The notes beneath the pieces were generated by a model, which saw nothing but the letters and a program-made list of their open reading frames with translations, was not told where the DNA came from and did not search any database. Made by a program: the position numbers and the translations under genes. From positions 1 through 47,466 of the forward strand of contig JAUSJC010000008.1 in assembly GCA_030647775.1 (NCBI GenBank): 47,466 nt of DNA, in the 5' to 3' direction. The stretch is from Candidatus Curtissbacteria bacterium (GTDB lineage Bacteria > Patescibacteriota > Microgenomatia > Curtissbacterales > GWA2-41-24). Positions 27,993 to 28,428 of this stretch are shown in pieces; positions within the stretch are counted from its first letter, which is position 1, and the number at the start of each line of letters is the position of its first letter.

Positions 27993-28172
27993 GCCGGCGT
28001 GGCTCAGTGGTAGAGCGAGTCATTGGCCTGCCCGCCGTACTTGCCCGAATGGCTCAGTGGTAGAGCGAGTACTTGGTAAGTACTAGGCCGAGGGTTCGAT
28101 TCCCTCTTCGGGCTCAAACGGCAAGGCAGGCGGGTAATGACTAGGTCATGGGTTCGATTCCCATCGTCGGCT
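27993..28172 (+). tRNA. tRNA-Thr(GGT) interrupted in the anticodon loop by about 108 nt containing another tRNA; may be a pseudogene
   Basis: GCCGGCG/CGTCGGC acceptor, AGTCA/TGACT anticodon stem, ATGGG-TTCGATT-CCCAT T-arm; loop TTGG|...|TAA. Confidence 0.75.
28043..28114 (+). tRNA. tRNA-Thr(GGT), complete, nested
   Basis: GCCCGAA/TTCGGGC, AGTAC-TTGGTAA-GTACT, GAGGG-TTCGATT-CCCTC. Confidence 0.95.
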
Positions 28173-28180
28173 CAAGGTTT

Positions 28181-28237
28181 GCCGAGATAGCTCAGGCTTG
28201 CCCCGCTAAGCGGGGTGAGGTAGAGCGACTGTTTTGA
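28181..28237 (+). pseudogene. tRNA 5' half relic with palindromic insertion in the D-loop
   Basis: gccgagatagctcagg[cttgccccgctaagcggggtga]ggtagagcgactgttttg, no matching 3' half. Confidence 0.75.
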
Positions 28238-28288
28238 AAGAGAGCTTCTTTTGCGTAAGCAAAACTAGCGAAGCGTTATTTTTAATTT

Positions 28289-28361
28289 GCCGACGTAGCT
28301 CAGTGGTTAGAGCACCTGTTTTGTAAACAGGGGGTCGTGAGTTCGACTCTCACCGTCGGCT
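28289..28361 (+). tRNA. tRNA-Thr(TGT)
   Basis: GCCGACG/CGTCGGC, CCTGT-TTTGTAA-ACAGG. Confidence 0.95.
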
Positions 28362-28428
28362 CACAGAGCAAATTAAAAAAGAAACAGTAGTGCTAAAATT
28401 TATATCAAAATCCTAAGGATTTTGACGA

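Follow-up and report, generated by a model that had tools for sequence, protein, structure and literature searches.

The 47,466-nt stretch of Candidatus Curtissbacteria DNA analyzed here (the window) contains a complete tRNA-Thr(GGT) gene lying within the anticodon loop of a second tRNA-Thr(GGT) gene. About 55 distinct nests of this kind were found across Patescibacteria. We favor, at a probability of about two in three, an explanation in which a palindromic unit that carries a tRNA gene inserts into the loop of a tRNA gene with the same anticodon; the inner gene then replaces the broken outer gene, which decays.

Anatomy of the nested tRNA-Thr genes

The Thr(GGT) nest occupies positions 27993–28174 of the window and is composed of the following elements.

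27993..28026, + strand: 5′ half of the outer tRNA-Thr(GGT), positions 1–35; its stems all pair with the 3′ half, with which it is contiguous in the syntenic genome G014
28027..28036, + strand: left arm of the inserted unit, CCTGCCCGCC; the same 10-nt end is found in dozens of nests and in free palindromes
28037..28042, + strand: left spacer GTACTT, from the sequence
28043..28115, + strand: intact inner tRNA-Thr(GGT) (ARAGORN; Rfam RF00005, 72.5 bits)
28116..28124, + strand: right spacer AAACGGCAA, partially paired with the left arm and spacer in the fold
28125..28134, + strand: right arm of the inserted unit, GGCAGGCGGG; end shared with other nests
28135..28174, + strand: 3′ half of the outer tRNA-Thr(GGT), positions 36–73 plus CA, assigned by stem pairing and a match to G011

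The insert is 108 nt in length (28027–28134) and is placed cleanly between loop positions 35 (G35) and 36 (U36) of the outer tRNA. A 2-nt ambiguity at the junction was settled because comparison with other nests fixes the ends of the unit as CCYGCCYGCC and GGCRGGCRGG. When the outer halves were joined (AGTCATTGGTAATGACT across the junction), ARAGORN called a tRNA-Thr(GGT) with the loop TTGGTAA in which 21 of 21 pairs are intact (7/7 acceptor, 4/4 D, 5/5 anticodon, 5/5 T); random halves scored in the same way retained a mean of 13 pairs and a maximum of 17. Default ARAGORN and Rfam scans of the locus report the inner tRNA and miss the outer one. The first-pass annotation had described a tRNA-Thr(GGT) nested in the anticodon loop of another, a well-formed rejoined outer tRNA, and flanking arms able to pair, and each of these descriptions is borne out.

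The 180-nt locus folds at −84 kcal/mol (z −4.2; none of 200 shuffled sequences folded as well) into a structure in which the inner cloverleaf tops an arm helix extending from the outer anticodon stem. Read from this minimum-free-energy fold alone, the arm helix has a 3′-side bulge and no clear two-bulge motif is apparent. Crossing (pseudoknot) pairing of the arms was considered and dropped; CCTGCCCGCC and GGCAGGCGGG pair in antiparallel fashion with one U-G and one C-A. The Rfam scan of the window returned tRNAs only, with no group I intron or other known RNA in the insert. Arms and tRNA make up the entire contents of the insert, in which no encoded integrase or duplicated att core was found, and its junctions are clean. 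Both outer halves flank this single insert in the correct order, rather than occupying separate loci as in split tRNAs of the Nanoarchaeum type.

The inner gene is the sole intact Thr(GGT) of the assembly. It is 84% identical to the outer gene, and the differences fall on both strands of the acceptor and T stems. A 31-nt run in the outer 3′ half (28143–28173) is identical to the Thr(GGT) of G011, a genome of the same family, and the run AAACGGCAAGGCAGGCGGGTAA in the right-arm region is identical in G028, where it lies beside a Thr(TGT).

A second nest, of Thr(TGT), adjoins the first at 28181–28392. Its arms are unrelated in sequence to those of the Thr(GGT) nest.

28181..28236, + strand: decayed 5′ half of the outer tRNA-Thr(TGT), read from the sequence, with a D-loop palindrome GCTTGCCCCGCTAAGCGGGGTGAG at about 28196–28219
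28279..28290, + strand: left arm TTTTTAATTTGC, a perfect 12-nt inverted repeat with 28368–28379; it overlaps the start of the inner tRNA by two bases
28289..28362, + strand: intact inner tRNA-Thr(TGT) (ARAGORN, Rfam)
28368..28379, + strand: right arm GCAAATTAAAAA, inverted repeat with the left arm
28380..28392, + strand: remnant of the outer 3′ half, AAACAGTAG, without U36 and the T-arm

Nested tRNA genes elsewhere in the genome

An arm-independent test, in which the flanks of each tRNA were joined and then analyzed with ARAGORN, revealed outer genes with the same anticodon around 5 of the 42 tRNAs in this genome (G000): Thr(GGT), Ile(TAT), Gly(CCC), Gly(TCC), and Lys(TTT). Shuffled flanks yielded no joined tRNA in 126 trials. 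Decayed outer genes surround Thr(TGT), Val(TAC), Leu(TAG), and possibly also a Met tRNA. The locations outside the window are as follows.

G000:C4:69797-69903 (L217): Gly(TCC) nest
G000 C7, about 496441 (L006): Gly(CCC) nest
G000 C3, about 19149 (L003): Ile(TAT) nest
G000 C7, about 523619 (L017): Lys(TTT) nest
G000 C4, about 41249 (L005): decayed outer gene around Val(TAC)
G000 C4, about 33487 (L007): decayed outer gene around Leu(TAG)

The arms vary between these nests but are inverted repeats; those of the Lys, Ile, and Thr(TGT) nests are unrelated. Cys, Ile(GAT), and Ala(TGC) tRNAs were found neither intact nor interrupted in this 93.7%-complete assembly, which thus offered no candidate for an essential tRNA encoded solely by an interrupted gene. 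At G000:C4:62317-62405, a 90-nt tRNA-like gene called as Asp(atc) is flanked by a perfect 12-nt inverted repeat (TAGGGTAAAAGA and TCTTTTACCCTA).

Recurrence of nests across Patescibacteria

We counted nests with a search for armed units (CCYGCCYGCC, 70–100 nt, GGCRGGCRGG) that does not require an outer gene; earlier pattern searches demanded a good outer 5′ half and were biased in this respect. Applied to 384 genomes of the class, the search detected 32 tRNA-bearing units, every one of which is nested in a second tRNA gene; the site is the anticodon loop in 25, the D-arm in 6, and the T-loop in 1. These units measure 104–116 nt. Within the anticodon loop, the insertion point is 35|36 in Thr, Ile, Met, Arg(TCT), and Gly and 37|38 in Val and Ala. 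Outer and inner anticodons are identical in 30 of the 32 cases, differ by one base in one, and cannot be compared in one whose outer anticodon is unreadable; in D-arm, T-loop, and decayed cases, the outer anticodon was identified by visual inspection of the flanking sequence.

An independent Thr(CGT)-in-Thr(CGT) nest is present in G019, which belongs to another family, and the first search of relatives revealed 3′ outer remnants in G028 and G033. The nests recovered by pattern searches of the 384 genomes represent anticodons for Thr, Val, Ile, Met, Ala, Arg, Gly, Pro, and Leu; triple nests were seen in G071, G055, and G177. Ile(GAT) nests are syntenic in three genera of one family; we rejected this synteny as proof of inheritance, given that the nests share a host gene but have different arms. 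At another locus (L117, G106:C10), five tandem repeats of ~37 nt derived from the 5′ part of tRNA-Thr precede one intact tRNA-Thr(GGT).

When 85,462 species genomes were scanned with the nest pattern, 45 stretches matched, about 20 of which overlap a tRNA. Among these tRNA-overlapping records, the ones with Patescibacteria titles include Kerfeld-, Levy-, Roizman-, Berkel-, Doudna-, Gottesman-, and Parcubacteria as well as Kazan, and some are complete chromosomes; two records titled as chromosomes, CP011216 and CP066689, contain nests. Three titles depart from this pattern. One belongs to a 7.5-kb contig assigned to Flammeovirgaceae, which we suspect is misbinned, another reads simply "bacterium," and the third is that of a Myxococcota stretch in which the tRNA call looks spurious. 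The remaining matches outside Patescibacteria have no tRNA inside.

Empty sites and kinship of inner and outer genes

Comparison with related genomes, suggested at first pass, revealed nests in many relatives and uninterrupted counterparts in others. Val(CAC) is nested in G278 and uninterrupted in G365 of the same genus, with synteny on both sides; the 106-nt insert of G278 is bounded exactly by the arms, with no duplication or loss relative to G365. Empty and filled sites likewise correspond to the base for Arg(CCT) (G081 and G164, respectively) and Gly(TCC) (G011 and G000). For the window locus, G014 of the same family has Thr(GGT), Thr(TGT), and Tyr in the same order, uninterrupted, and none of 10 same-family Thr(GGT) genes compared is nested.

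The outer gene of the window is close to same-family Thr(GGT) genes of the G005/G018/G011 type (0.86–0.88), and G053 of another family reaches 0.89; the inner gene is nearest to a tRNA of another family (0.92, G041). Across pairs of nests with the same anticodon, inner copies resemble each other more than outer copies do in 114 of 125. Inner and outer genes of one nest mostly share 45–85% identity, with complementary changes on both strands of the acceptor and T stems, and relaxed constraint rather than transfer could account for part of these differences. Nor is a native outer gene with a foreign inner gene universal: in the Gly(TCC) nest of G000, the inner gene is 99% identical to that of G003 and has a family-native look, and the outer gene resembles those of G011 and G377.

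Several very different versions of Thr(GGT) exist within one family (L034–L041, L051, L062), and Arg(TCT) genes vary in their acceptor stems while the rest is conserved (L246–L257). The pattern is as if tRNAs were often replaced. Because Thr(GGT) has been exchanged for very different versions within the family, the nests are plausibly intermediates of such replacement.

A nest might instead arise locally, if replication template switching at hairpins placed a tRNA gene, or a copy of it, back into its own loop; the two genes would then be identical at first, with no foreign DNA or element involved. Such self-copying would fit the Lys(TTT) nest of G000, in which inner and outer genes differ at few bases, one of them part of a compensated pair, as well as the D- or anticodon-arm features common to inner and outer genes in some genomes and the unrelated arms found within a single genome. 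We nevertheless regard it as unlikely to explain the nests: the degree of divergence and the complementary stem changes require either selection on both copies or separate origins, the CCYGCCYGCC ends are conserved across Patescibacteria, and inner genes are close to tRNAs of other genera or families.

Resemblance of the unit to mobile palindromes

The ends of the unit belong to a family of mobile palindromes, because free palindromes with those ends occur at other sites. Free palindromes of 30–43 nt, most with the same ends, were found in 9 of 59 relatives, and interspersed copies ending in CCTGCCCGCC and GGCAGGCGGG are present in several genomes. One 39-mer, CCTGCCCGCCATCGCTGCGCTCAGGCGCTGGCAGGCGGG, is identical in G016, G019, and G024, which represent three families; identical or nearly identical 39-nt copies lie at L319, L323, and L327 (G024), L316, L322, and L326 (G019), and L315 (G016). 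Some free palindromes sit between short direct repeats, gaatttg (L314, L325) or tttggatc (L316, L326). Empty and filled alleles, as expected of a palindromic mobile element, are provided by G365/G278, G081/G164, G011/G000-Gly, and G014/G000-Thr. The tRNA-bearing units look like members of this family with a tRNA in the middle. Phage was considered as the vehicle and rejected: no tRNA-bearing unit was present among 14 armed stretches in IMG/VR, from which the 39-mer is also absent.

Fate of the outer gene

Among 24 readable outer genes interrupted in the anticodon loop, 14 keep 20–21 of 21 pairs and about 10 show some decay, compared with decay in all 6 interrupted in the D-arm. This difference is suggestive, although the numbers are small and it may reflect age. 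Some damaged outer genes carry further palindromes in their D- or T-loops, and outer genes are often destroyed while the arms still pair. We conclude that the outer gene is usually a relic of varying age because of these damaged copies, the failure to find RtcB described below, missing or wrong bases at the junctions of nests with other types of arm, and the greater conservation of inner than of outer copies. At the window locus, the outer gene is so intact that the insertion is probably recent, or else the outer gene is still used.

Continued use would entail release of the inner tRNA by RNase P and RNase Z (or equivalents), retention of the outer halves by the paired arms, and joining by an endonuclease and a ligase, so that each locus supplies two tRNAs. 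The perfect outer cloverleaf, correct joined loop, and pairing arms of the window locus are compatible with this scheme. The survival of intact outer genes in the anticodon loop (14/24) and not in the D-arm (0/6) is what would be expected if only anticodon-loop inserts could be spliced, and the differences between the outer genes of G164 and G081 preserve pairing. However, RtcB (PF01139) was detected in only 2 of 30 genomes searched and was not found in G000 (93.7% complete), G019, or G028. Many outer genes are dead even though their arms pair, rejoining leaves an anticodon loop with a missing or incorrect base in two nests of G000, Thr(TGT) and Lys, and at both levels of the triple nest in G071, insertions into the D-arm and T-loop exist, and a second tRNA with an identical anticodon would be of little benefit. 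Functional nesting is therefore improbable in our judgment. The first-pass annotation had left the choice between a tRNA-in-tRNA or split arrangement and a very recent relic; the nesting stands and recurs, a recent relic fits better, and halves held together and joined find little favor given the RtcB searches and the frequency of dead outer genes. We are more skeptical still of the proposal that anticodon-loop nests are two-for-one tRNA genes, in which RtcB-free bacterial splicing would use the arms as a splice helix and repeated nesting would stack two to three tRNAs of the same anticodon in one transcript.

Sequencing or assembly artefact, or chance juxtaposition, is exceedingly unlikely: metagenome-assembled genomes are drafts, and the G330 contig ends within such a tRNA, but the same architecture is present in dozens of independent assemblies, including complete chromosomes, empty sites are exact to the base, and real flanks yielded 5/42 joined tRNAs against 0/126 for shuffled ones.

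A model for insertion and replacement

In the insertion-and-replacement model that we favor, a small mobile palindrome of these genomes would have acquired a tRNA, producing a unit of ~105–115 nt in which inverted-repeat arms enclose a complete tRNA gene. The unit would enter the loop of a resident tRNA gene with the same anticodon, in this case at the G35–U36 junction of tRNA-Thr(GGT), with clean ends and no target duplication. The inner tRNA probably arrives by horizontal transfer from a related bacterium. Once in place, the inner gene would be expressed and decode, and the outer gene, silenced by the interruption, would then decay. Because tRNAs are single-copy in these genomes, mismatched insertions would be lost, leaving only same-anticodon survivors. 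The failure to find units outside tRNA genes would need, in addition, a preference for tRNA loops.

Several observations run counter to the simplest form of this model. The 14 of 24 intact outer genes are more than might be expected of relics of random age, and the unrelated arms of the Lys, Ile, and Thr(TGT) nests in one genome mean that a single sequence-specific element cannot explain all cases. Finally, the anticodon match extends to C34 tRNAs, whose loss is perhaps tolerated, and selection alone may not explain it.

Transfer RNA genes are usually regarded as stable, vertically inherited, and intact. The insertion-and-replacement model describes a phylum-wide process in which tRNA genes are repeatedly disrupted and a gene for the same tRNA is delivered in a single event; nested copies would then be snapshots of horizontal tRNA replacement. 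It would constitute an undescribed route for replacing essential tRNA genes in the tiny-genome bacteria of the CPR/Patescibacteria. It also implies a mobility system that acts on hairpin loops, and resembles a natural disrupt-and-rescue design. Nests are easily missed by annotation, and they offer defined substrates for asking whether RtcB-less bacteria can join tRNA halves.

Comparison with known systems

In the literature searched, which comprised open-licence papers, we encountered no account of one tRNA gene nested in another; a prior report elsewhere is possible. Rickettsia palindromic elements and REP/BIME sequences are short hairpin-forming repeats that occupy many sites, including sites within genes. 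The units described here are likewise hairpin repeats, and free palindromes with the same ends accompany them; they differ in carrying a whole tRNA gene, in being found only in tRNA genes, and in nearly always matching the anticodon. Integrating phages and plasmids, as well as tycheposons, use tRNA genes as insertion targets and either restore the tRNA or bring one along. The nests share with these elements the target and the preservation of essential tRNA function after insertion, but their units are about 105 nt, have no integrase or duplicated tRNA 3′ end, and contain a complete second tRNA.

Intron-containing, split, and permuted tRNA genes of archaea and eukaryotes have been reviewed (PMC3978253, PMC4090602, PMC3218864). 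Like the nests, they have halves parted in the anticodon loop and complementary flanks. In contrast, the genes reported here belong to bacteria, their "intron" encloses an intact tRNA gene, 28 of the 30 genomes searched yielded no RtcB, and the outer genes are often dead. A tRNA-Sec gene nested inside selB (PMC8124441), described in the one paper on a nested tRNA that a full-text search returned, provides another example of a nested tRNA; its host is a protein gene, whereas the hosts described here are themselves tRNA genes.
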